DNA of 64,000 nucleotides from Bolinopsis microptera (lineage: Eukaryota > Ctenophora > Tentaculata > Lobata > Bolinopsidae). This document shows, one piece after another, positions 32,296 through 54,237 of this stretch. Positions within the stretch are counted from its first letter, which is position 1, and each line of letters begins with the position of its first letter. The DNA lies in NCBI RefSeq assembly GCF_026151205.1, contig NC_087075.1:13128303-13192302 (forward strand), read 5' to 3'. The translations under genes were made by a program, and so were the position numbers. Below the pieces are notes generated by a model that worked only from the letters and a program-made list of their open reading frames with translations, made no database searches and was not told where the DNA came from.

Positions 32296-35200
32296 TTATG
32301 ATTTCTGGGATTCATCGTTAGCGATCTCAACAAGCTTGGTTTCTGTTTTAGCACTGATTTCACTAATAGTATTAACAGTCTGACTTAAATGGCCTCGTGT
32401 GCCAGATGTGGCAGAAGCGATTTCTGTTATGGTTAGATTCGACTTCCCTCCAAATTTATTGTCTTTTTTATTGTTTGGTCTCATCTGTGGAACGAATTTC
32501 ACTAATATGGACTCTCGGATAAAAGTGTAAACTCTTGAGAAAATCCACCAAAAGAAATCTTGAATGGAATTATCATAAAGCAATGGATTGATCACAGAAT
32601 TGATCGGTAGCACTATCATTGCAAAGGGCACGTACCAATCAGTGGAGTCTATCTTACCTCCATTATGTAGGGCACTTATAATAATAAATGGCACCCATGA
32701 AGAAAAATCTGTCCCTATCAAAATCGATATCCTGCTTTGCAGTGCTCGATTCTGGCGGACAATCTCTGGATTTTCATCTTGTCCACTGCTTTTAGCAGAT
32801 CTCCAAGTTTTAATGCTGATCGCCGTGTAGGACAGTGTTATCAATACAAAGCAGAAAAAGTTGATACCTAGCATGAGCCAAACCATAATATTTCCTCTGA
32901 CGTCGATGACACTAATTGCATCATCAGCTCCCCTTGATCTTCTAGGGTCGTCACTTCGGACAAAATATTTAAACAGACACACGCCATCATTCCCATAGAA
33001 ATGGACAGCACTCCTTCTTATACTGCCATAATCTATACTGAACATGTTATCAACCTTACTACCAATTTCTGACCACGACAAGTCTGGGGAAAAGCTTTCA
33101 TTTTTGTAGTAGGCTCCAAGGATCTCAAGATGCTTGACTTTGTTAGGAAAACCGATGAATATTTTATACTCAGGATCATAGAACATGCCTTGGACAAAAT
33201 AATCCTCAAATGCAGGAACCAGTGGTGTAAGAGCTACTGCAAGAGCAGAAGTAACCACTGCTAGAACTATCAAACCTATTTTTAACATCAATCGTTTGTT
33301 CACTTGTTTGGGAGCAGAAAGGGAACTATTCACAATGCCTGACACTCTGATAAGACTCAAGGACGTCATAGCAAATAGAGACAGCTGTGATCCTATGGTG
33401 CTTATCACTCCTAAAAAAGCGCAAGTGTATCCTGATAACCATTCGGGTTGTATCCTGCAGTAATCTTTACCATGAATAAAACTGTCGAACACGGACAGTA
33501 CTATTAGATATGCCCCAATGAGGAAATCCCCAAATGCTATGAGAGAAACGAGTATTCGGGTGGAAACCATATTTCCAGTCCCGCCGTCTTTAATGGAACT
33601 TACTGTCTTAATGGTCGTTATTATGTTCAGTACAGCAGCTGAAATTCCTAGTATCCAGCATGTCAATTTCAAGTACCAGCTTTCAAGGATTTCTTTTCCG
33701 CAGGACTCATTGCACTCGTCCGATAGATCGAAGCAATCAAATATTCCGTCACACTTCTGCGATGGAGATATGAGATGTTCTTTAACGTTTATTTTGTCCT
33801 GGGTGTTCTTGCAAACCATGTGGTTAGAACAGGTCTGTTCGTCTGACATGTCCCCGCAATCATCAACAAGATCACATACTTGGTTGTAGGTGACACATCT
33901 CTTGTTTTTACATTGAAAGTGAGTATTTTCATATTTACCCTCCTCGGTCATGGTTACAAAAGTGAGGTAAGAATTTTTAGCGAGGGTATACACCCGATCA
34001 GAAAATGAGTGCGGACATGAATCATAACCAAGAGGTCTTGCCTCCAGAGGACACATCGAGTTTAAACACAAGTCCATGCAACTCAGGAAAACATAATACT
34101 CACCAAACAGACGACTGCAATCCACTTTGGCAACGGGGACATTTATCATTATCTCTACACCAAAAACATCCTCTGACGGCCCCCCAAATTTCTTTATTTG
34201 ACATCCTGTATTTTTAGGTCGTTCCACAATTGTACATAAATCTCGTACGGGACAGTTTCCCAACACTGCCGTCTTTGTGATTCTCGGGAAATCTCGGGAC
34301 AAAGCACAAACCCGCTCTTCAACTTCACAGGAAGAAACACCGTCACAAAGATGATCAAACTCAACTAAGTTGTTTCCGTTTACATCTCCAGGACACAGAA
34401 ATACGTCTGGACAATTTCTTTTGCCGTAAACTATTCTAAAGGTTTCATCTAGCCCGCACTCTTGTATAAGGCCAAACTTCTGTTCATCTTCACCATTAAT
34501 GCAATCGACCTGGTTGTCCAATATCCAAGAGAAAGGTATCTCCATAAATTTAGTAGGACTAAAACTGCGATGACATTCAAAATGCTCACCTGTTGTTATT
34601 GTACATATGTCAGCAATTTCATCGCTGCTGTCACCACAGTCAATTACCCCATCACAAAGTTTGTGTTTATGGATGATACAATTTGTATATTCACCTGGTA
34701 AAGACAAACACTCCCCATCCAGACTATCGTCACACAAGGACACTATTTGACCCTGCATGAACGAACTATCACAGACAACGAACTTGGACACACTCGACCA
34801 AACCCGTTTACATTACAGTAACCACCGATTCTGCTCACATCAGAGCAGTTTGTCTGATCATGGAAATTTGAACAGTATGGGAATATCTCCATACTCTGAT
34901 CTAAATCAAACACTCCGCACCTTGTATAGGGGTGCAAGGGAACGATCCGGTCCCCTGCACCGTACTTGCGGCAAGTTTGTTGGGTCTTCTCAGTAATATC
35001 ACAATTAGATTCGTCCTCTCCATTTTCACATTCTTCAAAACCACTGCAGATCCAGTCTGAACCTTTATACTGCCCAGAGCAGTAAAGACCATAGGTGTAC
35101 CCGTTACAAATGCTTTCATCAACACAATTTTCGGAGTCGCATTTATCATCGCAAACTGATAATTCACTAAAACGGGCAGACACAGAAGACGCTTTTAATG

Positions 35201-35551
35201 TTACAGTGGGTTGCGAAGTCAAACCACTGTTCTCACAATTTGGGTCACAGATTTCAAAGTGTGCCACTCCTTGTTCGGAATCGTAGCGGAAATAGCCCCC
35301 ACAGAGAAAAGCGTGGGTTCCAGTTGTTGTTTGGGGGTTAAACCCGCACGCCTGATAAGCATACGGGTCATCTTCACAGAGGGTGGAGACACTCGAAATT
35401 GTGTAGCTACCAGTGATCATGTTGAATTTGCTACCTTGCTCGTAATTAATGTCAGAGTTTGCACACATGTGGTAGTACCGATGTCCTTTTTCGTTGTAGC
35501 AAACTCGTTTCAAAAATCCGCCTATCTTAGTAACGTTTGTTGCTTGGAATT
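32296..35551 (-). CDS. Gene A last exon: Cys-rich region, LDLa repeats and 7TM receptor
   Basis: This exon starts at 35551 (after GATGAG; the joined G+AA codon keeps phase). It aligns along its length with exon 3 of gene B. First comes a Cys-rich region (CEDDPYAYQACGF), then LDLa-type repeats with typical endings (CDGVIDCGDSSDE, CDLVDDCGDMSDEQTC, CDGIFDCFDLSDEC). Then seven hydrophobic segments end in PINSVINPLLYDN, the NPxxY-type motif of class A receptors. A long second extracellular loop carries YGNDGVCLFKYF, also in gene B. The frame breaks at GAGTGTGTCC (about 34787-34796): the upstream frame runs into a stop at 34743 while the downstream frame opens at 34791. The cytoplasmic tail is Ser/Thr-rich and about 90 residues long. 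Confidence 0.85.
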
Positions 35552-35657
35552 CTCATCTGCAAAAATAATGAAAATGAATAGAAATCATCAAATTTCCTTA
35601 TTTTTTCATTACCAAAGCAACATTATACGTGAAAAATCTTACATTTGATTATCATAC

Positions 35658-35815
35658 CTGTCTTATTAAAACAGCGGAGCCATACGTTATTTTTATATCC
35701 ACAGTCACTGTTGTGACCCATAATCTTCGATGTACACTTTGAAATATCATCATCATACTTGGTACATCTTACTTCGTTCATTACAATGTATATGTCCAAT
35801 TGTTCCAGCTTAGAT
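35658..35815 (-). CDS. Gene A: SRCR4, second half
   Basis: This exon encodes the C-terminal half of an SRCR domain: EVRCTKYDDDISKC, SDCGYKN and VWLRCFNKTG. It joins phase 2 to the exon ending at 41530 and phase 1 to the last exon. The intron on its 5' side is 5.7 kb and filled with mobile elements. Confidence 0.8.
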
Positions 35816-36114
35816 CTTAACAATAGTGAATTATCATTGAAGTAGGTTAATTTAGTAATCATAATCACATGAGTAAACCACGGTGTTATTGCAGAGAACC
35901 ATGACAAGGCTTATTATACTAAGCTGAGTATGCGTTCAAATCTCCTAACTTCGTATAGTGAAACGTCGAAAGGTTTGCCTTAGCCTTTTGTGACGAGTGC
36001 TTGCCCGACGGGGATCAAAAAATATGATCACCATGAACATTACTTAAGAGTTGACACGTGAACTTATCACACGACTGTAATGATTCCAGAAAATTGTACT
36101 AGTGCATTTAGCTA

Positions 36115-36839
36115 CCTTATCGGACCTTATTTGGACGGACATTAATTGAACACTGGAGGCCCTAGCGTTCACCTTAATGTCCGTTCAAATAAAGTCCGTT
36201 CAATTAATGTCTGTCCAAGTTAAAGTCCGTTCAATTTTTTTATATAAAATTTTAACAATCTGAATTGTAAATATTACATTATTGCATGATCACTATCTTG
36301 AAGTTGATCTTCAGCTTCTTCTACCTCCACATTTTCTTTTAAAACTGGTTGTCTGTCCAACTCGTAGTTGTACCGGGCAAAGAAATGATCCAAACTGCTC
36401 TACTATAGAGAGATACGTGAATGCCTAAAGTACAGCTTAAACTTTATCTCTAGCCCCCCACTCGGTATAGGCGACCTTCGGTGGCTTATGTCAGCTACGA
36501 TACCTTCTACCATACCACCCATCTCGATAAAGTAGAAGACAAACCGGGATATCTCCCTGCACGAAAACCCATTTGATGAAGATGATGTGTGATATTACTA
36601 TTAGATAATGATCATGTAAACATATTTTAACATTTTTACTGATTAAAGACTGCTTTTCTTGCTTACTGTATGAAAACGGATTTAAAATTCATTTGCTAAA
36701 ATTAAAAAAACGTCAAAAAAAAGATGAAAAAAATTCGGATTTTTGATGGTTTTGATTGCCTTCTATAAGCGTTCATATTAATGTCCGTTCATAATTATGT
36801 CCGTTCAAGTATTGTCCGTCCAAATAAGGTCCGATAAGG
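36115..36839. mobile_element. TIR element with CCTTATCGGACC ends
   Basis: Identical 27-bp inverted ends begin CCTTATCGGACCTTATTTGG at 36115 and close at 36839, flanked by TA on both sides. Subterminal repeats of GTCCGTTCAA occur near both ends (36170-36240 and 36780-36830). No transposase frame is present. Related end fragments occur near 38762 and 52890-52915, so this is a local family. Confidence 0.85.
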
Positions 36840-37915
36840 TATGAAGCTCATCTTCGATGATAGGATCCGGGAAAGGAAGCTCCAGAAAATATCGAGTAAC
36901 TCCTCAGTCCTCTTTTTTTATAGAACAGTGTTTACACTACACACACTGTTTGAATGTTTATAGTGATTTATGCCGGTCCGAGACGAAACGGAAATTCTTT
37001 AGCTTTTCGTGTTAAAACTAACACGACGGTTATCACCTCTCTATATGATGCTTAAAACATTTGGACTTCATTGCATTTTTGGTTTTGCGGTCACTTGAAT
37101 TTTTGTATTTTGCCCAGCTAGGATGGTCGTAGAGACTAGATTCCGATACACCAAAATGTACCTAATAGTCATATTGATATTCATATACAACTTGACGCAG
37201 TTCATAATTTCTGTGCTTTTTGGCATTTCCGCCAAACTATTATCATACACCAAAATGTACCTAACGGCCGCATTTATATACAATTTATGAAGCAACATAT
37301 ACCTTAAAATGTTTATTTCGGAAATATAGCTGAAAAACGGATTTTTGCCGAGCGAACAATGAAATACTCACAAACAGGCTATTGGACTGGTAGCTAGAAA
37401 GGTTCTAAAGACTCATGAGCAACATAACATTTGTCCGAAGATGCAATATAACTGACTTAGTGTCCAGAAACATCTAAAACGTTGGAGAATGAATTACTTA
37501 ATTGGGCATTTCTCTTAATAGGCCAGGCATATTTGCGTCTTACAAAAGGGAAATATTTCAAAATAACGAGATGGCCTTTTAGAACGGTTGGTCTCCGACT
37601 ATAAACACCAAACACAACTAACTTAGTCAGAGAATTTCAAGCAACAACACGAGTGTAACTGGGATGTTTTCCTGTCTGCTAACAGCAAATAGTTCGCAAT
37701 TGCCGACTCATGCACATTATATACTCAAAAACGCTCAGTTTATTATCATAAACTATTTAGCTAATCTTTCCAGCTTTTTTCTAACTACACCATCAGAGAG
37801 GTGCTACTTTCCCATTGCCGCTCAAGAAAATGACAAAGCTCCTGGTACCTGGTATAAAATCAGGTAGATTATTGATCAGAGAGGCATCTGAGAAGGCAAG
37901 TATCCTAAAGTTACC

Positions 37916-38505
37916 CATGAGATAATAAGATAATGAGATAATGAGATAATGAGATAATGAGATATTGAGATAATGAGATAATGAGATAATGAGATAATGA
38001 GATAATGAGATATTGAGATAATGAGATAATGAGATAATGAGATAATGAGATAATGAGATAATGAGATAATGAGATAATGAGATAATGAGATAATGAGATA
38101 ATGAGATAATGAGATAATGAGATAATGAGATAATGCGATAATGCGATATTGAGATAATGAGATAATGAGATAATGAGATATTGAGATAATGAGATAATGC
38201 GATAATGCGATAATGCGATAATGCGATAATGAGATAATGAGATAATGAGATATTGAGATAATGAGATAATAAGATAATGAGATAATGAGATAATGAGATA
38301 AGGAGATATTGAGATAATGAGATAATGAGATAATGAGATAATGAGATAATGAGATAATGAGATATTGAGATAATGAGATAATGCGATAATGCGATAATGC
38401 GATAATGAGATAATGAGATATAGAGATAATGAGATAATGAGATAATGAGATAATAAGGTAATGAGATAATGAGGTAATGAGGTAATGAGGTAATGAGGTA
38501 ATGAG
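37916..38505. repeat. 8-bp satellite (GATAATGA), about 590 bp
   Basis: About 73 tandem units of GATAATGA with variants GATATTGA, GATAATGC and GGTAATGA. Variants cluster, so units have been copied in blocks. Long minus-strand frames repeating HYLIISLS come from this array and are not genes. It lies in the long intron of gene A. Confidence 0.97.
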
Positions 38506-39950
38506 ATGGAGTATACCATATCTTGACTTGACTAAAAGACTAAGAATAAGAATATTACAAATGTTCAGGAAAGGTAGATTTTCCAAACTGTCCCAGACTT
38601 CTGTTGTGCAATTTTGGGTATTACGCTAGCATGACACAATAATTAACACAATTTGACTCGATATTTTTTGCAACTTTTCTGTCGGTGGTCGATTCTCCTT
38701 TATTAATATATTATGTATAACTACTAGAAAGCCCGTGGTCACAGGGAGGAAGCTAATACTCTACCTTATCGGACCTTAATCGTTGGTAGTTAGTTTTTAT
38801 AGCATCAACAAATATCCGGCACAACCGAATATACAACCAATTAAAATATAGATCGCACTGAACACAACGTAATTACCACAAAACCGATCAAAATCTCGCT
38901 AGAAAATCTTTGCATGTGCACGTGCGCTTTTGAATACTGTTACCATGGTTACTTTTCAACTACGTATTCTTTATTTATTTGCACGCAGGCGGTCGTACAT
39001 ACAAACAAAAATAATTCTTTGAATTTTAAGTTAGAGACTATATATAGTTGAATTCTCTCCCCATATTTTCTGACTTGATAAAAAGACTAGGAGATCTAAC
39101 TATAAGAGACTCAGCTTTAACCAACCACAGGGAACGGTATCTGTCCGACCTTTATCTTACTTGCTGAGCTTTTCTGGTGAGGACCACTGATATAAAATTT
39201 ACGTAATCTCGATTATAACTTTCAATTTATTCGCTACCGCTACCAACGTCACTGGTCACGGCGTAACTTAACTTAACTTTTGAAAACATATTCTCTACTA
39301 TGCTCACAAATTTCGATTCGATATTATTTGGTTAACGTTTTCGGCAGCTCCACAATTTTATGGCTACGTTGAAGTGGTTCGAGGAATTACTCTCCAAAAC
39401 GAATGGCTCGGACTTTGACCACAAAAAGTGTAAACTTTATCTCCATCGTACACGATAACTTCAAAGCTGTCAGGTGTGTTTTTTTCATACTTAACTAAAA
39501 TTCAACTTTGAAAGTCAATAGATTATTAGTGACAACAAAATTGTAGTTTAAGACATCCATTCTGCGCAGTGTTTCCAATATTAGAATTTATGATATGTAT
39601 TGATTTAGCAAGGTGAATCTGGAGTCCCCAGAGTATCGAGCAAAACATGCCTGTAAGACCTTTTACTAACATACGTCAAATGGTAGCGTTTTTTGGGATA
39701 TCCTATATGTTTCCGAAAATAATCGTTTCATAATTTGTTTTAAACAAAGATAAATTACGCATCTAGAAATTACTACTTTGTGGTGCACTGCACAGTTCAA
39801 CACATAAGGATAAGTGACGTCCTTACTGGACGACAGTAGCTCTCAAAAAATGTATTAACAAGGTTTCTACTTTTCTAAAAGGATATTGTTATTCATACAA
39901 TTTTTCGATTGAACAATGTTTCTTAATTCCATACTATAGTCTATAAGTAT

Positions 39951-41481
39951 CAAGAGTTTAAATTCCCAAATAGTCAGACTGAGCAGGTTGAGCTGTAGTA
40001 AAACACAGTACTGAGGTGTTAAAACATTTTCATTACTATCTTCAGTAACATCCTGAATCAGAAACTCGGTTAATATCAGTTCCTACAAAATGTAACATTG
40101 GAAATGAAATGACACAACTAAAAACGATATGAATATTTTTTAAAAACATAACTCTTGTGCCCCAATGCAATAAAAAACATTTAAGATAAATCCAATAATG
40201 GAATCCCAAACGGGTCCAAGGCATTGAGCCCCAATGGACGTATAGTTCTTAGTTTCTGAATATAACGGTGTTCATCCACTTCTAGAGTTCTTGGGCTACT
40301 ATTACTGAGAATTGACACTTTATAAGCCTGGTTGAAATTGTCACGTTGTTTCATGTTATGAACTTCTAGAAGGTGTTTACCCAAGCTGAATCCGTCGTCG
40401 TTTTCTTCAGGGACAAACGTATTGTCCGAAATGAGTTTGTAGTAATGGGCGCGATGTTCGTTTACTCGTGCCCTGAGGGGCTGCACCGTTCTTCCTACAT
40501 AACACATGTTACAAAGTTGGCAGCTGAAGAGGTATACAACATTGTAGCTGACACATGTACCAGACACTGCTTTGGCTCGCTGTCCATTGACTGTTATTGA
40601 TGGATGTGGAGATATGATGTTACAGGTACCGCAGTGTCTGCCCCCACATGGTCTTGTGTGAGGTTGGGTTAAGTCATCCGCAAACTGTTTTGCTTTGACT
40701 AACTTCCTTCTAAATGATGTTCCAGTACGTCTGACGAATTTGAAGATAGGGCGTGATGTACCGGCTCTAGATGATATTGGGGAGCCTGGGGTGTTTCCAC
40801 TTGTATGGGAACCAGATAATCCTGAGAAGCTCCTGGTTCTACTGAGTTCTGGTTCCAATCTTTGCACCGATTCTACTAACTCTTGATCACTGCCAAATGT
40901 TGAAATAACGCGGACTGCTGGTTCTGGAGACTTTGGTACCAGGACATTGCTGTTTGAGTTGTCCAGTGGTTTGAGACATCTTTCAAAGCCTTTGACCTTT
41001 TCACTGATGTTATCTACCATAGTTTTAGGGTAGTTGGATTGGAAGAAAAAGGTTTTTAATTCATCAATTTGTTTTCGGAGTCTTTCGTTATCATTGATGA
41101 TTCGCCGGAGTCTCAGGCATGCACTATAGACTATGCTGCTGAATGTATGGTTCGGGTGGTGGGAACCGAAGTACAGGTAGGAGCGGGCATCAGTCTCTTT
41201 AACATGGAGGTCTGTCTGAAGATCACCTGCGGTGTCGAAACAAAATTTGATGTCTAAGAACGACACATAAACATTGTTGTCTTCTATGATGTTCTCATCA
41301 ATGTGGAGGCCAAGTTCTGCTAGCCTTGAGTTGACAGTCGCGATGAATTTTGAAAACTGTCTTTTCGTACCATGGAATACTCCACAGCCGTCGTCTATGT
41401 ATCTCTTGACCGATTTTACAGGTTCCATTAGTTCCGTGTCTGTATAGACTTGCTCACGCATGACATGGTATACTGCTATGT
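39951..41481 (-). mobile_element. 5'-truncated Penelope-like element with 14-bp target duplication
   Basis: The minus-strand frame (40181-41461 and a little upstream) begins within reverse transcriptase just before the catalytic motif (KRYIDDGCGVFHGT). It continues through the RT C-terminus into a GIY-YIG nuclease (VVYLFSCQLCNMCYVGRTVQ, then RARVNEHRAHYY and LGKHLLEVHN). RT followed by GIY-YIG defines Penelope-like elements. The N-terminal RT motifs are missing, so it is truncated but otherwise open. The 14-mer TAGTCTATAAGTAT at 39937-39950 recurs at 41482-41495, which marks the insertion borders. Its strand is the same as gene A. Confidence 0.9.
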
Positions 41482-41529
41482 TAGTCTATAAGTATACGGT
41501 TGCATGAATAAAAAAAGTTAATAACTTAC

Positions 41530-43893
41530 TCAGAAATATATTTTATGTTCTTTGGATCACTCCCCCAATCTGCGAAGACATATCCACCAATTGTAACTGA
41601 TTGAAAGTCCGGAGCTTCGGGTGTTGTTACAAGGCACGAGAGGTAGCTGGGGTTCTGATATAGGAAGATGGGGTCCATACTTTGGGTCTTTTTATAGTAT
41701 TCAGATGGGCAATACTTTGTTCACTTTAGATGTTGGTTGTGGACAATAAAGACACCAAAATATCAGAACTTTGTCAGAGAGCGAGAAGGCGATGCAAAGG
41801 TGTTCAACACCGACCAACTCTGTTAATAATGATACAAAACACTGTTTATATAACCGCACTCAATTACAACGCTAAACTTCCAGAATGCATTTCTATTCGT
41901 CTGCTAACTGTGACAAAACATTTGGCAAACCTCGGATTGGCCTGGACAAATCGAACGACTAATTTGTTCCATGAAAGCTGCTCGGATATTTAACTTTCGG
42001 GATAGTTCCACTGTCTTCAGGTCTACTACCATATGCAGCACTTTAATCGCATTTGAAATGCCTGTCGTTGGCACAGTTATCACGGTTACATATTATGGAA
42101 CTTGCACTAACGGTAGTCTGATCGATACATGTAGCCGGGCCATTACCAAACGGCTACAATCTACCCTGTCTTCCTCCTGAGATCATATGAACTACTTATA
42201 TTACCTATGAACTGTGCTTACTGGGTAGCCGTATCCACTACCGGCTACACCTCACCCTGTCTCTCCCTCGAGACATCACCGGGCCCTACTTTCCAAACGG
42301 ATTCCTTAAATCAATTTTTATAAACAATATCCACACAAACACAATTGTTCAATCTCACACACATAAAACACACGCTTGATATTGTTCCATATTCTGCAGT
42401 CCATAATTATATATGCATTTCACGTGACGTCAAACATTATAACTCCGAAGCGTCCAAACGTTGAACGTTGCTGAACTCGGAAAACCTTCCAACGTTTCCA
42501 GTGGTCGATTTGACTCTCTCGTAGAGTCTGAAGAGTTCTGTCCAGCTTCAACTCGAACAATCTCACTCCGACGATTTAACTTTTAGGATTCTTCTTCATC
42601 TGTGACTCGATCTTACCGAGATTCTCACTCTCAGTCTGCGTTCTTCCTCGAACGGCATCACTTTATCTTCTCTTCTCTCTCCGGGATCGAGGTTCCCATA
42701 CGCCGTCGTGAGATGTCCTCCCATATCGTCGAAATGCCTCGTGCACATAAATACTGAACTGATAGGGTTGGCCCGTGTCCTACCAGTTGTACATCGAGAC
42801 AGGTATCCACTTCAGCAACCACTCCGTCATCTACTTGATCATCTTCTCGGTGCTGGATCGATCATCAAGCCTTTTCCAGTTTTACAACGAAACAAGACTC
42901 GTCTTGTTACCCTACTAGTCTTCGGGTCTTCATGGTGTCTTTCCCGACTCTCCGACAATTTTCTGATTCCTTTCCTCTCCGACAGCACAGCATACCAGTC
43001 GTCACCAGGTAGCTCTCAGAACTCCAGTCAGTATACTTCCAGGTTCCTCGTCAACTGCTTGCGGGACGTCAACCAGAGCGGTAGGGCTTCAATTAGGGCT
43101 CTTCCTCCGCTATAGGTTCCCTGTTTGTTCGCGCCATTGTAACTGATTGAAAGTCCGGAGCTTCGGGTGTTGTTACAAGGCACGAGAGGTAGCTGGGGTT
43201 CTGATATAGGAAGATGGGGTCCATACTTTGGGTCTTTTTATAGTATTCAGATGGGCAATACTTTGTTCACTTTAGATGTTGGTTGTGGACAATAAAGACA
43301 CCAAAATATCAGAACTTTGTCAGAGAGCGAGAAGGCGATGCAAAGGTGTTCAACACCGACCAACTCTGTTAATAATGATACAAAACACTGTTTAAATAAC
43401 CGCACTCAATTACAACGCTAAACTCCCAGAATGCATTTCTATTCGTCTGCTAACTGTGACAAAACATTTGGCAAACCTCGGATTGGCCTGGACAAATCGA
43501 ACGACTAATTTGTTCCATGAAAGCTGCTCGGATATTTAACTTTCGGGATAGTTCCACTGTCTTCAGGTCTACTACCATATGCAGCACTTTAATCGCATTT
43601 GAAATGCCTGTCGTTGGCACAGTTATCACGGTTACATATTATGGAACTTGCACTAACGGTAGTCTGATCGATACATGTAGCCGGGCCATTACCAAACGGC
43701 TACACAATATACTGACAAAACAGGTGTGCTGTGTACCAATTAAACTTATCCGCACAAACTGTTCCATTCTTTTTTATCCCAGTTTGTCTGTTAACAACGT
43801 TGACGTTCAAAAGACCTAATTCCATCCCGGTTTCTGTCTTTATGTCATTTGCTAGGTTTAGGAGAGAAGCTTTCCATAATTCCCAAATAGGTT
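41530..43893 (-). pseudogene. Gene A: SRCR4 first-half exon, split by an LTR element
   Basis: Bases 43893-43705 encode the start of an SRCR domain (PIWELWKASLLN, then GTVCADKFNWYTAHLFCQYI). Bases 41587-41530 encode the rest (GYVFADWGSDPKNIKYIS) and end at a good GTAAGT donor. The 2.1-kb LTR element sits between them. If the element and one 4-bp target copy are discounted, the exon is 247 bp, the same size class and phases (1 and 2) as the other three SRCR first-half exons (235-244 bp). Confidence 0.9.
41592..43704 (-). mobile_element. Non-autonomous LTR retroelement inserted in a coding exon
   Basis: Two 567-bp direct repeats (41592-42158 and 43138-43704) differ at about two sites and have TG/CA-type termini. 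CAAT flanks both sides (41588-41591, 43705-43708) as a 4-bp target duplication. Read on the minus strand, a primer-binding-site-like TGGCGCGAACAAACAGGG follows the 5' LTR (about 43118-43136). A purine tract AGGAGGAAGACAGGG precedes the 3' LTR (about 42164-42179). The 979-bp interior has no minus-strand frame over 60 codons, so this is a TRIM-like or internally deleted derivative needing proteins from elsewhere. The near-identical LTRs imply a recent insertion. Plus-strand open frames here are incidental. Confidence 0.92.
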
Positions 43894-44051
43894 CTGAAAA
43901 AGGTGCACAAATCTTTTGTTCTTATGTTAACTTATTGACTAGAATTATGTACATGGTTAATGAATTCATACTAACTCAAATGATCAATACAAATACAATA
44001 TAAGATCAATGTGGAATATAAAACCGTACCGTCTTCAAATTAATAGCTTAC

Positions 44052-44507
44052 CGACATAATACGTAAATGAAATTGTATCAGGTACTGCATGAATCTTTAA
44101 TTCACCAATGTCATACTCATAAGTCCCATCATACAAGGCACACTCTCCCGGTTTAGTTTCGTCGAGTACCTTTTCTCCATTACAATAGACGTTTGTGTTT
44201 TCCCCGCGTTTCTCGATTAACCATGATTTATCGTCATTTTGAGGCAAACTCCTCGGGAAGGGAGCAAAGTCTCTCCGGCACCGGCCGTATAGTTCATACA
44301 TTATAGTGGAGGAGAACATGATTTCAAAACCACCTACATTCAGTTGTCTTCCTTTGATGAATGCGGAATCCATAACTTCTTCTTTGACTGTAGAATAATA
44401 CGAAACACTAATCGTGTCGTCGCTTCCCCGTAGGCTGTTTGTTTTTAGTTGCACGTAGGAAACATCTGGATCAGCAAAAATCGGATACCAATTGGGCGGA
44501 ACCGCGC
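44052..44507 (-). CDS. Gene A: repeated extracellular domain X, copy 2
   Basis: A phase 1-1 exon for about 151 residues. It shares with the exon at 51632-52063 a framework of SYVQLKTNS, GGFEIMFSS, WLIEKRGENTNVYCNGEKVL and a conserved Cys. I do not recognise it as a standard named family; a distant relation to farnesoic-acid-methyltransferase-like invertebrate domains is possible but unproven. Confidence 0.8.
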
Positions 44508-45149
44508 CTGCTGATTAACAAAGTGTGTCATGATCAGTTATTATCACTTTATTATTATTATGACATGATTAGAAAATTGTATTCGAACTTTGATAACGAA
44601 TACCTTATTGTACGTTGTTCGACCGGACAAATTGCGCGAACAGTGAATGGAAATAATTTTGAGCGTACATTAGAATGAACACTCAAGGGGCCATCTACTT
44701 AGGACAACAAATCATAAAATAGCCTTGATAAAATTAATTCTTGATGGTAATAATCATATTTTGGTTTCAAAATTGGTTTCAAAACCATACTGGCAAATAC
44801 AAGCATTACAAGTACAATAACTGCATCAAAAATATTCCGTCACCATAATTTTATATTTTGACGTAATTATGCTACCTGTATGGTGATTGGTGACAATATC
44901 GTTAAGTCATATTAGGAAATGTCACAGTTGGTCATAAGAGTCTTTGTATAATAGCTGTTACAATCAAACAAATTTGTGTAATTTTAATTAAATAACCGCC
45001 AGAAATAGTACTTGATTTTGAGAATGGATTCCATTTGGATCGTATTCAATCTACTTTTAAAGTTTTAATTAAAGCGCAAATCCTCATGACCCTCTTTTAC
45101 TTGGCTTTTATCTATTTCTAATTAAAAAATGAATTTTGGTAGTTGGTAC

Positions 45150-45365
45150 CTGTTATCATGTTAATATAACAAGGTTTTCTCGGGCACTCAATAAATTCTC
45201 CTTTACAGCAGAGGCTGTATATTTCTAAATCTCCACCGTTACATTGATCTACCAGCCCGTCCCGTGATAACCTTTCATCATATTCTTTTTCAATGATCTT
45301 TGCACAGCATCTGTTGTATCCAAAAAAGGCATAGGGATGGGTTTGAGGGCATTCGTTGAAAGTTT
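45150..45365 (-). CDS. Gene A: Cys-rich CPxxHPYAF module
   Basis: A phase 1-1 exon for about 72 residues with pattern NECPQTHPYAFFGYNRCC, SLCCKGEFIECP and PCYINMITG. Similar Cys-rich modules occur in secreted proteins of cnidarians and lancelets as far as I recall; I know no named function. Confidence 0.75.
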
Positions 45366-46258: not shown

Positions 46259-46376
46259 TTGTATCATCAGTGCAGAAGGATACATCTTGCAACTGAACTT
46301 CTGGATATCGATCGTCAATTGCACCCAGTCTATTGAAAACATTCAAGGCTTCTGTGCCATCAATCGTAACAACGAT
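46259..46376 (-). CDS. Gene A: PLAT downstream exon
   Basis: Starts after ATATCAG in phase 0 (IVVTIDGTEALNVFNRLG) and ends at CAAGTGAGA in phase 1. It follows the PLAT exon and probably completes that module (IDDRYPEVQLQDVSFC). Without the donor at 46258 the frame would meet a stop within three codons, which supports this boundary. Confidence 0.65.
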
Positions 46377-46471
46377 CTGATATTAAATATAACATATTAT
46401 CACTATATAATTGAAATGAGAATAGTCCTCCTCCCCTCCTCCCCTCTTCCCCGCCTCCCCTCCTCCCCTCC

Positions 46472-46833
46472 TCTTCTGTATTTATAAAACCACTTTATGA
46501 GGTAGTATGAGTTTTTGTTACCTTCTCAGGAACCCAGCTATCTGTACCACCGGTCTGTCTGATATTTATACATTGGAACTCTCCAATATTGGAGCTATCG
46601 GTGAATGTCCAGACGTCCCCTCCTCCCCTCCTCCCCTCCTCCCCTCCTCCCCTCCTCCCCTCCTCCCCTCCTCCCCTCCTCCCCTCCTCTTCTGTATTTA
46701 TATAACCACTTTATGAGGTAGTATGAGTTTTTGTTACCTTCTCAGGAACCCAGCTATCTGTACCACCGGTCTGTCTGATATTTATACATTGGAACTCTCC
46801 AATATTGGAGCTATCGGTGAATGTCCAGACGTC
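46472..46833. repeat. 216-bp tandem duplication including an exon end
   Basis: The segment CTCTTCTGTATTTATAAAAC to CGGTGAATGTCCAGACGTC occurs at 46472-46617 and again at 46687-46833. The period is 216 bp, and a CCCCTCCT microsatellite lies between. The right copy includes the last 96 coding bases and donor of the PLAT exon. The left copy is an intronic duplicate of that exon end without its own 3' splice site. Confidence 0.92.
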
Positions 46834-46982
46834 AGTTTGACCTCTCTGCCTCTTGTTACGGTTCTGATCAGCTATATATTCAGCGGTTCTTCCTTTGCTT
46901 CCGATAAAGGAGTAAAGGAATACGTCATTGCTACTAGCCCCATGATTATCGTCGGATGTTGTTATCGAAACGACATATTCAA
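46738..46982 (-). CDS. Gene A: PLAT/LH2 domain exon
   Basis: Starts in phase 1 after ATTTCAG and reads VEYVVSITTSDDNHGASSND, VFLYSFIGSKGRTAEY, VWTFTDSSNIGEFQCINIRQ, matching the PLAT beta-sandwich pattern (Y-x-V-x-I-x-T-S-D...GA...D-V...L-x-G...G...I-x-I-R). It ends phase 0 at GAGAAG before GTAACA. PLAT domains occur in lipoxygenases and polycystin-type membrane proteins and bind lipids or proteins. Confidence 0.88.
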
Positions 46983-47129
46983 CTGAAATATAAATTTCTT
47001 AGCATTATATTACACCATAAACTTTGCATAAAAGAGCACACCAAACTGATATTGAAGCATAATCATATCATAACTATCCAAATATTTTTAGAGTTGGTAG
47101 AGAACATGATCAGACCGCTTGTTGATGAT

Positions 47130-47880
47130 ATTGCACTGTGTAAGATACGGATTATACAGATGACATGGCTGTACTGGATAACAGCAAGGAAGGTCTTCAA
47201 GAAAAATTGAAACAACTGACCTTTTGTAGTTTTGTGTATGTATGCTGCCCAGGGAGGTCTCAGAATTAATGGTAAAAAGACTGAGGCTATGGTCATTGCT
47301 AAAGCAACCTCTCAACGGCCATACACGAAAGAAGCCACAGTGAACATCACTGTTGAAGACACGCTAGTGCAGCAAGTTAGTGACTTTACGTACTTAGGTA
47401 AAATTATTTCCTGCGACGGCACGACCGTGAGCTGTCTGCTAGGATTCAGAAAGCTTCTGGAGCCTTCAACCAACTCACTGCTCAGTAATATATGGAAAAA
47501 CTGCAACATCAAGTCTTACACAATATTGTTATATTATGGTAGTTTATATTTTCCATCAGCGTTTCTTGAGGAGAATATTTAGGATAAGAGTTAAAAACAC
47601 AGAAGTGCCCGAGAGGATACATCCAGTAGAGACCTAAATAGGAGCAAACCACCTGTGCTCATGGTTTTGCCATGTCACCAGAATGCCAGACACCAGGCTC
47701 CTTAAGTACCTGCTTAACTGGACCCCTGCGCATGGGAGAAGATTTAGGGGTCGTTCGAGAAAGAACTGGATGAAAAATTTGTTAGAAGATGCTGCAGCGA
47801 TTTCAGGAAACACTAATATAGATCTAGAAGAGCGAGCGAGATATCTAGTGACCACAAACACTGGAGGGAGATGATACAGC
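47130..47880 (+). pseudogene. Decayed LINE reverse transcriptase fragment
   Basis: Near 47150 a degraded catalytic motif (YTDDMAVLDNSKEGLQ) is followed by GLRINGKKTEAM and VSDFTYLGKIISCDG, the usual RT sequence after the YxDD box. A third frame (47683-47874) carries the C-terminal RLLKYLLNWTPAHGRRFRGR, RKNWMKNLL. Frames are broken by indels and a large internal deletion. It lies in a gene A intron on the opposite strand. Confidence 0.8.
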
Positions 47881-48281
47881 ACAAACGGGAGTTAATTGGT
47901 GCAGGCCACTCGAATGATTGAATTTGAGGAGACAGCTAATTAGGTACAAGTAAGTAAGGAGACACCAGTTTGACTTGCTTAGGACACAAATTTATTTAGG
48001 TAATCATGGATACGTTCCATTTGTAAATACAGACGATTTGTATAGTTTAAGATTTTAGCCTCTCATGATAATTGATAGAGCAGGTGGAAGAAGTTGTTTT
48101 AGTTTTAGTTTATGTACCCGTATTTTCGATTTTTCAGATTTTTAACATCGCAACTTAACAAAAAAGCCTACTAGTCTTTTGCATTTTTCAATATTTTCAA
48201 TTAAAATTTACAGAATCGTTGTTAAAGTAGCCAAATTTTGAATTTTGTTTATTATTATCATATGATTAGTCACTCACGTAC

Positions 48282-48425
48282 CCCCTTGAATGTGGTCAAT
48301 ACAGACGGAGCACCGTCCACTTGCATCACAGCACGCGTAACCATTTTCAGGATTGCACTGAGCTGGAGTACCGTCAGAGAGAGGGTTAGTCGGTCCACAC
48401 CTATCATCATCCCTCCACTGATTGG
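48282..48425 (-). CDS. Gene A: hevein-like (chitin-binding type 1) module
   Basis: A phase 1-1 exon reading QWRDDDRCGPTNPL, PAQCNPENGYACCDASGRC, SVCIDHIQ. The RCGP...C-x-P...CC...G-x-C spacing fits the hevein-like chitin-binding domain. The acceptor is taken as GCATAAG because the nearer AATCAG would put a stop in frame. Confidence 0.75.
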
Positions 48426-48626
48426 CTTATGCAATTTGAGTCTTGTTATTTTAACATTTATCACAATAACGTGATATTTTACTTAAGATTTAAAGTTTAT
48501 TTTTGAAGACAATTTTGTCAAAATACCATTAAATATTAACCATTGACAAAGAAGTAATTTATAAAACTGAGTTCTTACCACGATCAGTATAACAATCAAA
48601 CGAAAACAACTACGCTAAAAACTCAC

Positions 48627-48890
48627 GTCTGTTTCGGATGCAGACAATGTTCACGGAGACCATGTTCGTATAACGATCAGTTCCACTCTGCATGTTCCAT
48701 CCCCCCGATTTTTTGTAGCATCCTTGTAACTCGGCAGTGTACTGAGCAGGATTGGGACCAATAAATGTCACAGCTAGGCAGTTTTGGAGCTGTAAACATT
48801 GGTTGACACATTTTTCCTCTGTGCGTACGTCTTCCTTTCCCATGTCCCCTCCCAGGAAATTTGTAGCTGGAAGTCTGCACGATTCGTATG
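48627..48890 (-). CDS. Gene A: PAN/apple-like module
   Basis: A phase 1-1 exon for 88 residues: AYESCRLPATNF, EKCVNQCLQLQNCLAVTF, GCYKKSGGWN, MVSVNIVCIR. The C...C-x3-C...C pattern with a GCY-x-K segment fits PAN/apple domains, which bind proteins or carbohydrates. Confidence 0.82.
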
Positions 48891-49359
48891 CTGGGAAAAT
48901 ATTTTTCACGTCACAAGATGAAGTGACCGAACTTGTGCGTGGCAGATCCCACGGAGTGGGACAAGGGGAATTGTGTTTGTTATTTTGATGATGAATTGTG
49001 GTTACAATATCTTTTTATGTCCATGCTAATTAGTCTAAAAAAGTGATCAGTTCTAATCTCGACCGTTTTAGTTAAACAAAAATTTCAGTTAAACAAAAAT
49101 TTCAATTTTATGCCATTTATTGCATATTAAACAAGTTTACAATAAATCAATTTGATATTTAACGGAGTCCTAATTCAATGTGCAGTATGGTTGTCACTCT
49201 TTAAATAGATTAGATATAGGTTGACGGGGCAAAGGAGTGTTCGTGCTGTTCGTGCTGTTCGTGCTGTTCGCTATCTTCAATTATAAAAGCCCCCCTTATA
49301 AAGTATAAAGACTATCATGTATCATAAATATTCGAAATGATTGCCAACAAGTGAATTAC

Positions 49360-49922
49360 CTTTTTTATTGCTACAGCTTAGCCACACACTCTGACTGAAA
49401 TCACAACTTGGTTGAGAATATAAAATCATTGCTTGACAGTCGAAATCGTTTTCTGATCTATCTTCGTCACATCTTAGTTGTCCCAGTGTTAAACTTTGAT
49501 CGTTGGTGTTACTTTTACTTTTTGTCCACGTGGCTCTAGACAAAACAGTGAGTTGGATTAATAAAACCATCAATGTTGCAGAATGGCTCAAATTTTCAAT
49601 ATTCGAAAATTCAGTCTTTCATTGTTGTGCAGCAATCTAATCTACTAAGTTTAAATCTAAAAAAGTGATCTCAAAACATTAACTTACTCGGTAATAAACT
49701 CCGAGTTCTTCGGACCGCTGCCCCAATCGCCCTGTTCATATCCAATGAATTGGCAAAATGAATTTGCTTGCAACCAGTTAAAATTAGCTGCACAAACACC
49801 TCTGTTAATTTCACCTCCACTTTGTTTATTGAAGTAGGTAGCAAGAAGCAAACCTTCGTTTGTACTAGCAACGATTTTTTCATCTACCTCATGAACTAGT
49901 TCTGCTCGGTTTAACTCCCACT
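49360..49922 (-). CDS. Gene A: SRCR3 (two exons)
   Basis: Exon 49688-49922 reads EWELNRAELVHEV, GLLLATYFN, GVCAANFNWLQANSFCQFIG. After a phase-2 intron, exon 49360-49535 reads LRCDEDRSENDFDC, PSCDFSQSVWLSCSN. Together they form an SRCR domain split at the same place as the other three. Confidence 0.88.
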
Positions 49923-50159
49923 CTAAATACACATATTCGATGAAATGAAATATATCATAATATGATAGATTAGATGCAAATTAATATAATGTCAAGAAAA
50001 CAACAATTTCAAGAAAACAACAATTTTATTTAGTATCAGTTAAAGCAGACAAAAACATATTTTATAAATATAACTAGCGCGAACTTTAGACCATATATCT
50101 TAGGGGACTTGGAGTAGCAAGAGAGTGACCAGAAAGTATGTATATTTTTACCAAAAATA

Positions 50160-50640
50160 CGTCGAAAAGAATCCAGGGTGATACAGGATAGGAGAATTCC
50201 CCATTCAACTTTGAAAATCCTGGACCCGAAAAAATCGTAAAAAAACGAGGTACAAGATTTTCAAAATCGAATTAAAAATTCCCAAAGGCCCACTTCAAAA
50301 TCCCGGCTCGAAAGATCTCCCCTAAATAGTCCCCAGAACACATCCCGAAAGTCTCAGGGCGACCGCCCAAAAAATGTAGAAGAAGACAGACTTCCAGACC
50401 CGACCCCCAGAACCCGCGACCAAAAATCGCCCGCGCAACACAACCACACACAAGCGACAACCCCGGCTAGGAACAATACCCCTCCATGGGATCAAAAGCA
50501 GCTGGCAGACACCACTCCCCCCACCAGAAACAACCACAAAGTCGACTTCGAGAGAATCCCGATGAAGACCCCCCCCCCCCCCCCCGGCCCCCTCAAGAAT
50601 TACAACTACAAGTGGTGAAAAACGCCCAAAATCGATCTGA
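50160..50640. other. C-rich, G-poor island in a gene A intron
   Basis: Unlike its AT-rich surroundings, the plus strand here is rich in C and A and poor in T and G over about 400 bases, including a run of 17 C near 50569-50585. A Gly-rich frame on the minus strand follows from the composition and lacks any homology I recognise. It may be a heavily mutated repeat. Confidence 0.6.
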
Positions 50641-50936
50641 GAGATTTTCAGTTTATAGTACAATAATGATAGCAATAGTTTAAATTATGTGCCGCTACAA
50701 TTAGATTAAATTACTGTAACTTAAAATTGTTTGGAGTCCAAGTATTTTTTAAGTCAGCAGCCTGTGATTGTATTAATAATAGTGCTTTCGTTCTCAATTT
50801 TATCAAGTTAATGGAAGTTTCTAGGCAATTGCTTGAAGTTAAAATTAAAAAAAAATGTAAATAAGCATTAAACCAGTCGTAGAATTTCAAACATGAAACA
50901 ATCAAGCGTAATTATACCCTAACATAAATATTTCAC

Positions 50937-51496
50937 CTGTGCATATGAGCATAAAATCTTTGAAACCAACATGATTCAGATGCAGGATTGGATACACATT
51001 TATATGACAATCATGTATACTCTTATCATCATCCTCGCATATAACATCAACCTTTACTGTTAGCTTTATTCCTCCTTTTGCGGTAAGTGTGAAGTCCAAT
51101 TCGACATTGTTGTTGCTACGATAAATAAAGTGTAGGAATAAAATTAGAATGTGAACATGAATGTGGAATCTTCTTAATTTTAACTTGAAATAGCCAAAAA
51201 TGGCAGTCATCGTTAAAAGCTTAAGGTAAATTTGTTCTCCAATGACACTTACAGCAAATCTTCATCTTCATAATCAAAACTGTTTTCCCAATTCCCATTT
51301 GCATATCCAAAATATTGACAGAAATATTTGGACGACCTCCTGTCATACACATTTGCACATACAATGCCTTCTTGGCTGATCCCCGTTTGCTTGTTTTTGG
51401 CTGTTACGACCAAGATACTCTTTGAATTAAATTCTGTTCCGAATTTTGATAGGCCAGCAAAGGCAAATTCTGCTTTCTCTATTTCCCAAATAGGCT
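50937..51496 (-). CDS. Gene A: SRCR2 (two exons)
   Basis: Exon 51253-51496 reads PIWEIEKAEFAFAG, GIVCANVYDRRSSKYFCQYF, GNWENSFDYEDEDL. Exon 50937-51115 reads ICEDDDKSIHDCHIN, VGFKDFMLICTG. Phases are 1, 2 and 1, as in the other copies. Confidence 0.88.
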
Positions 51497-51631
51497 CTGA
51501 AATGATTATCGTTTATGTTATGGATTTTAGATGGTGTTTAATTAATACAGGTTTACCTAAGAGCTTAGTGACATTCGATTTTTGAATAATTTATTCCTCG
51601 TGTTTTTAGCAGCCTCATAATGATATCTAAC

Positions 51632-52063
51632 CTATGTAAATAAAGTCTGAGGCTACATCCCACTTAGGTGATATCTTTATTTGGGTCACTTTTCGTATCA
51701 TAACTATTTCAAATTCAGGAGATTCGCACGTTTCAACAGAAGCTGTTACACTGAGAACCTGTCTTCCGTTACAATACACATTTGTCCTAGGACCGCGTTT
51801 CTCGATAACCCACTCTTTGTCTTGTTCAGTTGGTAAGATTGTGTCGAAGAGATGGTAGGATTTGTCCTGGCAGGATCCCAACATGTATGATATAATATTG
51901 GCGGAGAAGAAGATGCTGAAACCTCCTATCTGAGTTTCTCCTTCATAAAACCATATCACCAACGAGTCTCCACTTCCCACAATACTGTCCGTTTTTATGT
52001 GTAGATAGGAAGCATCCAGTTCTGCAAGTATTCGCTCACCACGTACCACCGGACTCCACATAT
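51632..52063 (-). CDS. Gene A: repeated extracellular domain X, copy 1
   Basis: A phase 1-1 exon for about 143 residues: SYLHIKTDS, GGFSIFFSANI, WVIEKRGPRTNVYCNGRQVL, then a Cys and SDFIYI. It is paralogous to the exon at 44052-44507. It sits between SRCR1 and SRCR2, so an X-SRCR unit has probably been duplicated within the gene. Confidence 0.82.
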
Positions 52064-52149
52064 CTATCGATTTGGTATTAATGATTTGAAAAAATTACAG
52101 AACTTTCACTTGCTTCATTAAGAATAAGGGTGTAGGTTTTTTTGACCAG

Positions 52150-52426
52150 TGCAGTTCAATTTAGGTTCGACAAAGATGTTAGCAACCCTAACCCTAAACC
52201 AACCCCTAACTAAAGCATATGCTGGAACCCTAACCCTAACGAGAAATTAGACCAACTTCCTTATAAGGTCATATCACGTGATCGAGACAGTTCAGGGGAG
52301 CATTTTAACTCTATGTCATGTAAGGGTGATGTTTAAAAATACATCAATTGAAGTTGGTTTTAACTTTTGGGGGCCCTTTTACAAAAATCTTATAGATAGA
52401 GTATAAAGTGATTTAGCACGCTCGGG
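52150..52426. mobile_element. TTAGGG-bearing miniature element, inverted copy
   Basis: Inverted relative to 29413-29780: it contains AACCCTAACCCTAACGAG, GGTCATATCACGTGATCG, GGGGGCCCTTTTACAA and ends GTGATTTAGCACGCTCGGG. It is more diverged and lacks the last part of the element. Confidence 0.75.
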
Positions 52427-52987
52427 TATAAGGATGATGATTACGCTCGGGTAATACTAATTTAACCGATCGATAATGGCTTATCAAATATTTCAAACTG
52501 GGGCAAGGGGGCAAATAATTAAAAATCCTTTTGTTATTATTATTTTTGGATACTGGAAGCAAAATAAAATGCTGAAATCAAAAATCCCGTAGTATAATGT
52601 AAACGAAATTTATTTCCGCGACATTTTTGCGGATTTTTGGTTGAAAAATAAATGAATGCTCCAAAAAATCGATGGTTTTACTGTATACACAGTAAAGAGG
52701 CGAGTATTATGAAATGACGAGTAATGGAGTTAGAGCAGTCAACACATAGTTTATAATGGGGGTTAATCATGGAATAAGGACCTAAATCTGCTATCACAAG
52801 TATTAAAATTTTGACAAATGTTCAACAAATGATTGTTTCACTCTTATCGGAAAAAATTATGTCTGTCCACGTTATATTAATAATACCCTACTAAATAAAG
52901 TCCGATAAAGTATTTCTTTTTACTGTTTATATCATAACCTGAATTTCTCTCGTGGGCTAACTTGGCTAAAAACATTTAAAAAATAAC

Positions 52988-53593
52988 CTGAATTTGCATC
53001 ACATTGGAGAGTGACACCATGATCATCGGAATCACATTCCACTCCACTCATCCTGGCCTCTATTTCATCTTTCTTTGTACTTGTAAAACTGACATCGTTT
53101 ATGACGAATAGCGGCTTTCTGTTTACCGACCTCCATGCACTAAATCAAATGGAAAATTGTAGTATCAGGTGCGGTTGCATATACATGACACGTGAAGGTC
53201 TTTTTTAATTTCTATGGTGGTATAGACATTAACGTTTTAGGTTTCGAGATATTGTATCTTTTTTCGATTAAAACTTAAATAATTTTATTAACTTAATAAA
53301 AAAAGAGATTCATCGAAATAAACGTTTTTGCAATGACAGTTAAGTAATATAGACTTACGCAAAAGCATTTAAATCGGGCTTAAGACTCTCCCAATTTCCT
53401 CCTTTATTTCCAAAATAACGACAAAATATATTAGCTTTTCCAAAGTTAAAATTGTTAGGACACACTCGACCAGTTATACTCCTTCCATTTTTTCCAAGCC
53501 AGGTAACCAAGAGTAGGCCTCTACTTGAAGATTCTATAACTGATTTAGTTATCGAAGTTGTGTTAACCAGTTTTGCTTTATGAAACTCCCATT
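52988..53593 (-). CDS. Gene A: SRCR1 (two exons)
   Basis: Exon 53359-53593 starts after GCTACAG in phase 1 (EWEFHKAKLVN, GLLLVTWLG, RVCPNNFNFGKANIFCRYFG). Exon 52988-53139 (VINDVSFTSTKK, VECDSDDHGVTLQCDAN) completes the SRCR fold. It follows directly after the signal peptide exon. Confidence 0.86.
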
Positions 53594-54173
53594 CTGTAGC
53601 ATTCCCTGAGTTGCTTGTATATATGTGTGTGTATTGTATCCATAATTTGGCGATCATGAATAATATGAAGTGTATGTACGATTATTGGAAAAACTGAATA
53701 GGTTGTTCCATAGACCATATGCCCATTCGATTAAAGCAATTTAACCCTAACAAATTTTAACCTTTTTTTTCGATTGAAAATTGATAAACGAAGATCTAGA
53801 TATTGATACATATTATAACCAACATTGCTTATATTCTGCCTTGTAAACAAAGAGCAAATCTTCTTAATGCCTTCTTCCTGTCCTAAAACTAAAACTTCAT
53901 CCTATTAAAGTAAAGGCCAGTTGTTACCACAAGCTATTATACCGTCCCTCTCAAAAACATGCCTCAGCCTCCATCAAAAACAATTTTAGTTTTCAGTCCT
54001 TCTAGTTTCCAAAAATCTACCGAGCTAGTGTTCTGGTGTGCACAAAAGCCCCTAAGCCCGTGCATTCCTTGCCCCGCTAGCTGCCAGTCCTTGACAAACT
54101 TCCAATAGCAAAGATCAACTAGTCATTTACAAATTGAGCACTGATTAGATGCGATCATTGAAAAAACGTGTAC

Positions 54174-54237
54174 CTTTGTTATAGTTTCCCACAAGAAGAA
54201 AGAAAAGGATTTTTGTCAGTAAATAAGTCCAAATCAT
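54174..54237 (-). CDS. Gene A: signal peptide exon
   Basis: ATG at 54237-54235 opens a 21-residue signal peptide (TYLLTKILFFLLVGNYN). The exon ends AACAAAG before GTACAC in phase 1, exactly as required by the SRCR1 exon. This fixes the probable translation start of gene A. Confidence 0.75.

Follow-up and report, generated by a model that had tools for sequence, protein, structure and literature searches.

Class A receptors with varied modules ahead of LDLa: a large family in a ctenophore, and a damaged member of it

Can a single gene carry SRCR, PAN, hevein-like, PLAT and LDLa modules in front of a class A seven-transmembrane (7TM) domain, and if so, what might such a receptor do? The question is raised by a 64,000-nucleotide stretch of the genome of the ctenophore Bolinopsis microptera (C4:13128303-13192302, here called the window; the genome has 264.65 Mb, with 258.07 Mb, or 97.5%, on 13 large contigs), in which an original prediction had placed one such receptor gene. 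Two ionotropic glutamate receptor pieces of this genome have ML032222a iGluR, a Mnemiopsis receptor, as their best match and 4zdm, from Pleurobrachia, as the next; a third is most similar to vertebrate kainate receptors. We conclude that the 17 exons of this gene, gene 1, form one gene of a large ctenophore class A family, and that its members are most likely modular recognition receptors in which binding to the ectodomain would move LDLa onto the 7TM domain; to this account as a whole we assign a probability of roughly 0.62. The architecture, the family and damage to the window copy are directly observed. Each member has a conserved last exon, with a Cys-rich region, LDLa modules and an LGR-type 7TM domain, behind variable recognition modules.

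Two near copies of gene 1, P1 and P2, lie on the same chromosome as the window (P1 within C4:9388500-9413799, 92% identity, and P2 within C4:9422500-9447745, 88% identity, in a genome search with the last exon). All window exons recur in both, in the same order, with the short signal-peptide exon located only in P2. The prediction that one receptor combines SRCR, PAN, hevein-like, PLAT and LDLa modules with a 7TM domain is borne out by P2, which reads as one frame of 17 exons and 2286 amino acids (aa) with no stop, followed by TAA. P1 gives 16 exons and 2238 aa, stop-free until a run of N, with no signal-peptide exon identified. In both frames, one acceptor each for the PAN exon and the last exon was read from the sequence. 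The last exon of P2 has no signal peptide of its own.

The 7TM and SRCR exons do not fall into different loci in P1 or P2, where they share one order, strand and frame, nor at locus L009 (contig C9), where they share an exon. There, a single 998-aa open frame holds SRCR (41.9 bits) and LDLa (39.9 bits, three LDLa stretches); the exon aligns to query residues 3-593, TM1-TM4 included, before the frame enters N. Hevein-like modules give a similar picture. Among 19 ECR-bearing open frames recognised by motif, 8 have hevein-like modules (11 modules), and in 7 of these 8 the modules stand in the 7TM's own frame, judging from frame lengths (L025-L029, L031 and L034). At L032, the hevein-like frame does not connect to the 7TM.

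Our model of gene 1 was made by reading the minus strand and testing splice borders by script, independently of the earlier work, and it agrees with the 17 minus-strand exons from 54237 to 32296, signal peptide to class A 7TM, described there. The order of modules is signal peptide, SRCR1, FAR-like 1, SRCR2, SRCR3, PAN, hevein-like and PLAT, then a Cys-rich module, FAR-like 2, SRCR4, and a Cys-rich ECR region with LDLa modules and the class A 7TM. "FAR-like" is a label coined here for an unnamed domain of about 145 aa, of which gene 1 has two copies; neither these two exons nor the Cys-rich exon had been named before. Every SRCR domain of gene 1 is spread across two exons. The exons are as follows.

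54174-54237, minus strand: exon 1, signal peptide (MIWTYLLTKILFFLLVGNYNK..), with a homologous exon at P2:2269-2335
53359-53605, minus strand: exon 2, SRCR1 first half, from borders, paralog order and frame
52988-53139, minus strand: exon 3, SRCR1 second half, from borders, paralog order and frame
51632-52063, minus strand: exon 4, FAR-like domain 1, with a P2 counterpart that has no Pfam match
51253-51496, minus strand: exon 5, SRCR2 first half, from borders, paralog order and frame
50937-51115, minus strand: exon 6, SRCR2 second half, from borders, paralog order and frame
49688-49922, minus strand: exon 7, SRCR3 first half, from borders, paralog order and frame
49360-49535, minus strand: exon 8, SRCR3 second half, from borders, paralog order and frame
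48627-48890, minus strand: exon 9, PAN domain, 264 nt, of equal length in P1 and P2
48282-48425, minus strand: exon 10, hevein-like module, degenerate (6 Cys), from the family profile
46738-46982, minus strand: exon 11, PLAT first part, the place of the PLAT match
46522-46619, minus strand: partial second copy of exon 11 (PLAT exon end), left out of the model
46259-46376, minus strand: exon 12, PLAT second part, from borders and paralog order
45150-45365, minus strand: exon 13, Cys-rich module, from borders and paralog order
44052-44510, minus strand: exon 14, FAR-like domain 2, from borders and paralog order
43705-43893, minus strand: exon 15, start of the SRCR4 first half, truncated by a long terminal repeat (LTR) element
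41530-41591, minus strand: exon 15, remainder, starting at the second ATTG
35658-35815, minus strand: exon 16, SRCR4 second half, from borders and paralog order
32296-35551, minus strand: exon 17, Cys-rich ECR region, LDLa modules, 7TM and C-tail, with a frame change near 34.8 kb

Across AG/GT borders, a stop-free frame of 1121 aa runs from exon 1 to the first part of exon 15. For the PAN exon, an early acceptor at about 49010 was dropped and 48891-48892 taken instead, because this is the sole choice that gives a 264-nt exon in all three copies. The stretch 46427-46720 holds a partial copy of a PLAT exon beside GGGGA-type repeats, a donor-like GT included. Between the remainder of exon 15 and exon 16, a long tandem repeat of SLSHYLII-type units at 37793-38625 leaves three frames of the minus strand open. 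Beyond the end of the gene, a minus-strand frame of 334 aa at 30192-31196 resembles the end of a retrotransposon reverse transcriptase.

Domain searches confirmed part of the predicted composition in the window itself. LDLa (57.2 bits), 7tm_1 (35.9 bits) and PLAT (34.0 bits, cut-off 23) scored above the Pfam cut-offs; SRCR, at 22.4 bits for one half-exon (cut-off 26.1), and the PAN exon (PAN_4 23.6, cut-off 27; PAN_1 21.0, cut-off 21.4) fell below them. In the P2 chain, queried without its PAN exon, LDLa (61.3 bits), 7tm_1 (43.1), SRCR (36.5) and PLAT (34.5) were all above cut-off. Scanned alone, SRCR4 of P2 reached 35.3 bits, above cut-off, and SRCR1, SRCR2 and SRCR3 reached 15.6, 14.3 and 17.8 bits, below it; the P2 counterpart of the hevein-like module, like that of FAR-like 1, had no Pfam match. 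The same chain gave no leucine-rich repeat (LRR) family at E values up to 1 and no 7tm_2 or GPS family, with 7tm_1 found instead.

To judge by sequence comparison, the family's 7TM domain is of the relaxin/glycoprotein-hormone-receptor (LGR) type of class A. The best matches of the window 7TM among solved receptors were RXFP1 (6.1e-10), LHCGR (1.3e-9), TSHR (1.1e-8) and FSHR (3.6e-7); the first other solved receptor was of GPR119 type (3.3e-4), slightly ahead of LGR4 (8.9e-4). The ranking was similar with the P2 7TM as query. Hydrophobic segments in P2 comprise one at the N terminus, a borderline one (1.49) inside the first FAR-like domain and seven TM-like segments near the C-terminal end. 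About 108 residues separate TM4 and TM5 in P2, a long second extracellular loop, and the motif FYGNDGVCLFKYFV in the TM4-TM5 loop is identical in both receptor genes of the window.

The second of these genes is an intact member of the family, with a signal peptide, PAN, ECR, LDLa and 7TM.

57597-62713, plus strand: gene 2, intact family member of 1248 aa, exons 57597-57791, 58207-58333 and 59289-62713

Its Pfam scores were 32.1 bits for PAN_4 and 22.3 for PAN_1 (PAN thus above cut-off), 24.2 for LDLa and 49.9 for 7tm_1. A stretch of its first intron, at 57830-58205, is repeated nearly unchanged, an acceptor-like site included.

What had been presented as a single unusual gene is instead one of at least 168 distinct 7TM loci in the genome, partial and stop-bearing copies included. 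The search with gene 1 scored 55 of 643 candidates and that with gene 2 scored 113 of 557, in non-overlapping lists; the total is a lower bound because only part of the candidates were scored. At least nine further loci match the gene 2 7TM at 90-97% identity, and the ten LTR-free relatives in this set, gene 2 included (90-100% identity), show the family to be current. By eye, the upstream modules differ among 22 paralogs (P1, P2, L009-L016 and L023-L034). Pfam finds TSP1 upstream at L012 and L013 (54.1 and 48.6 bits) and an Ephrin-receptor-like match at L016 (25.0 bits, cut-off 23.1). An Ig-like reading of the upstream open frames at L028 gained no support, with 14.5 bits against a cut-off of 30, or no match.

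Except for modules in the 7TM's own exon, strand and position are the grounds for taking upstream exons to be spliced to the 7TM. Of 344 SRCR candidates, 150 were scored; 21 of these matches are found no more than 15 kb upstream in the same orientation, at 12 of the 168 loci, 2 lie downstream, and none of the 150 is near these loci on the opposite strand. On the 13 large contigs, 20 were observed, against a mean of 0.68 and a maximum of 13 in 1000 shifts. For FAR-like exons, the link to the 7TM is strong. Among the loci of the gene 1 search (n=55, one row left out as the second piece of one locus), 23 have FAR-like matches within 22 kb upstream (29 of 82 matches) and none has one on the opposite strand; the shift null gave a mean of 0.19 and a maximum of 4, versus 28 observed. 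On the opposite-strand and shift controls, a chance association of the modules with the 7TM was rejected. Elsewhere, PLAT and Cys-rich exon pairs also occur on C3 (three places), C1 (two) and C15 (one), six in all, with no listed 7TM locus nearby. They fit the movement of cassettes, as a possible source or destination.

Gene 1, P1 and P2 appear to be mosaic copies. In synonymous distance, the window copy is close to P2 in the first halves of SRCR2 (0.061, versus 0.367 to P1) and SRCR1 (0.102 versus 0.229), and close to P1 in FAR-like 2 (0.064, versus 0.389 to P2) and the first half of SRCR4 (0.064 versus 0.176). The simplest reading of these partner switches would be exchange between copies. 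The ratio of nonsynonymous to synonymous change (dN/dS) was 0.60 for P1-P2, 0.57 for window-P1 and 0.52 for window-P2 over the ectodomain exons, and 0.44, 0.35 and 0.48, respectively, over ECR plus 7TM.

The hevein-like module was predicted from the window copy, which here differs from other family modules. With a profile built from 15 family modules, that of the window copy among them, the match to the chitin-binding domain of peptidoglycan recognition protein 3 reaches 2.7e-17 over all 53 positions, and hevein itself matches weakly (0.023). Pfam Chitin_bind_1 stays below its cut-off of 27.8 (L024, 19.9 bits; L031, 16.5 bits). The window module has 6 Cys, short of the eight-Cys scaffold, and has lost the chitin-binding Ser and aromatic residues; those of P1 and P2 are likewise without the binding residues and two Cys. 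The 19 listed family modules all have 8 Cys, a spacing that the search pattern itself demands. Among them, Ser51 is kept in 5, an aromatic residue at 53 in 6, the second Trp (Trp55) in 5, with L024 and L025 as examples of loci that keep it, and the fourth position (His/Tyr/Phe62) in 17. The matched recognition protein is amphioxus BbtPGRP3, whose domain is reported to bind chitin via two Trp (PMC4610682).

Across the family (L024-L028, L029-L032 and L034), the loop of the Trp pair has lengths between 4 and 9 and also varies in sequence. Within 12 modules of L029-L032, the proportions of synonymous and nonsynonymous differences (pS and pN) were 0.258 and 0.138 for the scaffold (66 pairs) and 0.424 and 0.514 for the loop (17 of the 66 pairs, those of equal length only). 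In this small sample, the putative sugar-binding loop is clearly the part of the module that changes.

How does the family compare with known receptors? Type C LGRs (RXFP1/RXFP2 and GRL101) likewise have an LGR-type class A 7TM behind LDLa modules, and GRL101 has several of these, as the family does (PMC4079206). Unlike them, P2 has no LRR match, with SRCR, FAR-like, PAN, hevein-like, PLAT or TSP1 modules in the family instead, and the family has a large intronless ECR-LDLa-7TM exon and no acidic residue before the TM3 arginine. The LGR of the ctenophore Mnemiopsis (CKHR) shares the LGR-type 7TM, whereas it has 20 LRRs, and LDLa or SRCR modules go unmentioned in the available text of the source (PMC4079206). 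Sponge adhesion G protein-coupled receptors (GPCRs) also place SRCR repeats before a 7TM in an early-branching animal; that 7TM, however, is of the 7tm_2 class, and the accessible part of the report mentions no LDLa, PAN, hevein-like or PLAT modules (PMC4302439). In Mnemiopsis leidyi, 55 SRCR genes are reported, with novel domain combinations that include TSP1 and LDL, and 8 of 12 responding SRCR genes rose upon re-exposure to Vibrio; the sections available do not mention SRCR together with a class A 7TM, and name 7TM in the legend of a figure, for its CTLD panel (PMC11797021). Amphioxus PGRP3 has an N-terminal hevein-like chitin-binding domain, to which the family modules align over 53 profile positions, but there the domain is fused to an amidase and here to a receptor; the binding residues are kept in part of the family modules and lost in the window copy (PMC4610682). 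Searches of the open literature found no described receptor family with such an architecture. We rate its members as LGR-type receptors whose ectodomain is of a new class, in a family of unusual size.

A recognition role for the receptor is plausible by inference only, from a hevein-like module similar to a domain with reported chitin binding. We imagine that the distal modules (SRCR, PAN, hevein-like or others) would bind a surface ligand, whether a glycan, a microbe, prey or another cell. Binding might then move the stretch next to the membrane, which bears LDLa, onto the second extracellular loop (a long one) of the 7TM domain; in a final step this would activate a G protein, on the model of RXFP1. 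For RXFP1, exoloops 1 and 2 are reported as the place where the LDLa module acts, and ligand binding elsewhere in the ectodomain is reported to position LDLa on the 7TM exoloops (PMC4837482). We propose a similar LDLa step here; the long, conserved second loop fits it.

Several observations weigh against this account. Most module matches (129 of 150 for SRCR, 53 of 82 for FAR-like) lie away from the compared 7TM loci, so these modules occur elsewhere too. At TM3, both window genes keep the class A arginine but, as read by eye, have no acidic residue before it (LIR in one, MTR in the other). Values of dN/dS above 1 occur in single short exons (PAN and SRCR2b for P1-P2, SRCR1b for the window pairs). 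AlphaFold models from two-row alignments were unusable, with a mean pLDDT of 37.0 for the FAR-like domain and 28.9 for the last exon of gene 2. In the window copy itself, an LTR element splits the first SRCR4 exon; P1 and P2 have this exon in one piece.

41592-43704, strand not given: LTR element, LTRs at 43138-43704 and 41592-42158 (567 bp each) with 979 bp between

The element totals 2113 bp, has an ATTG target duplication on both sides, and its LTRs differ at 2 of 567 sites. Near 34.8 kb, the last exon of gene 1 shifts frame at a point where the frame of P1 and P2 runs on unbroken, and the start of exon 17 is without a two-Cys stretch found in P1 and P2; with that stretch lost, the family acceptor meets a stop, and only the AG five bases downstream keeps the frame. 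A 41-nt gt..ag near 34.8 kb is no family intron, because P1 and P2 are uninterrupted there. The earlier claim that splice sites, phases and lengths all agree thus holds for the family and fails for the window copy, in which the LTR insertion and two indels had been missed. Within the intron after exon 15, a minus-strand open frame of 434 aa lies at 40181-41485; it presumably is of Penelope type with a GIY-YIG end.

Gene 1 is interrupted, and it probably gives no full-length receptor, barring exon skipping at the affected places or an intact copy on another haplotype. It is indeed quite probable that the window copy is a pseudogene or a broken allele from which nothing functional is made, and that only the paralogs work. 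The insertion in exon 15, the frame change near 34.8 kb, the stretch lost from exon 17 and the partial duplicate of exon 11 all agree with this, as does the degenerate hevein-like module, though that degeneration is common to P1 and P2. Yet dN/dS against P1 and P2 is still below 1 in both the ectodomain and the core, and the damage is recent, because the LTRs mismatch at so few sites. The SRCR4 exon pair is of phase 1-1, so that skipping is possible. Moreover, a single assembly stands for a single haplotype, and an indel of one base might be an artefact of assembly.

For the family, an unlikely alternative is a cell-adhesion or self-recognition receptor, with a role like that of adhesion GPCRs and no sensing of microbes or prey. 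SRCR, TSP1, PLAT and PAN modules are also found in adhesion and matrix proteins, and sponge adhesion GPCRs with SRCR repeats have been described (PMC4302439). However, family size, mosaic exchange and the variable hevein loop are easier to square with non-self or varied ligands than with a fixed partner, and the P2 chain lacks the 7tm_2 and GPS matches.

It seems a little less likely still that these are hormone or chemosensory receptors, with the modules serving as stalks and a peptide or small molecule acting on LDLa and the 7TM in the style of relaxin receptors. Chemoreceptors usually show large expansions, and the 7TM is closest to RXFP1 and the glycoprotein-hormone receptors. Set against this, LRRs, the hormone-binding part of such receptors, were not detected in the P2 chain, and the ectodomain is constrained and diversifies by module.

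Least probable by far are neighbouring separate genes, secreted SRCR/PLAT proteins upstream and an independent LDLa-7TM gene downstream: the six PLAT and Cys-rich pairs with no listed 7TM nearby mean that the PLAT cassette can exist without one, but the single 17-exon, stop-free frame of P2, whose last exon lacks its own signal peptide, and the SRCR or hevein-like modules inside the 7TM's own exon at L009 and seven other loci led us to reject this reading, and FAR-like and SRCR exons, among the matches listed, lie on the 7TM strand and never opposite.

We therefore return to modular recognition receptors as our account of the family. LGR-type receptors in other animals read hormones via LRRs; here, in an early-branching animal and at no fewer than 168 loci, an LGR-type 7TM is joined to SRCR, hevein-like, PAN, PLAT and TSP1 modules. 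If the account is true, the LDLa-7TM signalling unit would be portable among very different ligand-binding ectodomains. If the distal modules bind ligand, pattern recognition would be linked directly to G-protein signalling, and one can envision that the sensing of microbes, prey or self by ctenophores would become addressable receptor by receptor.

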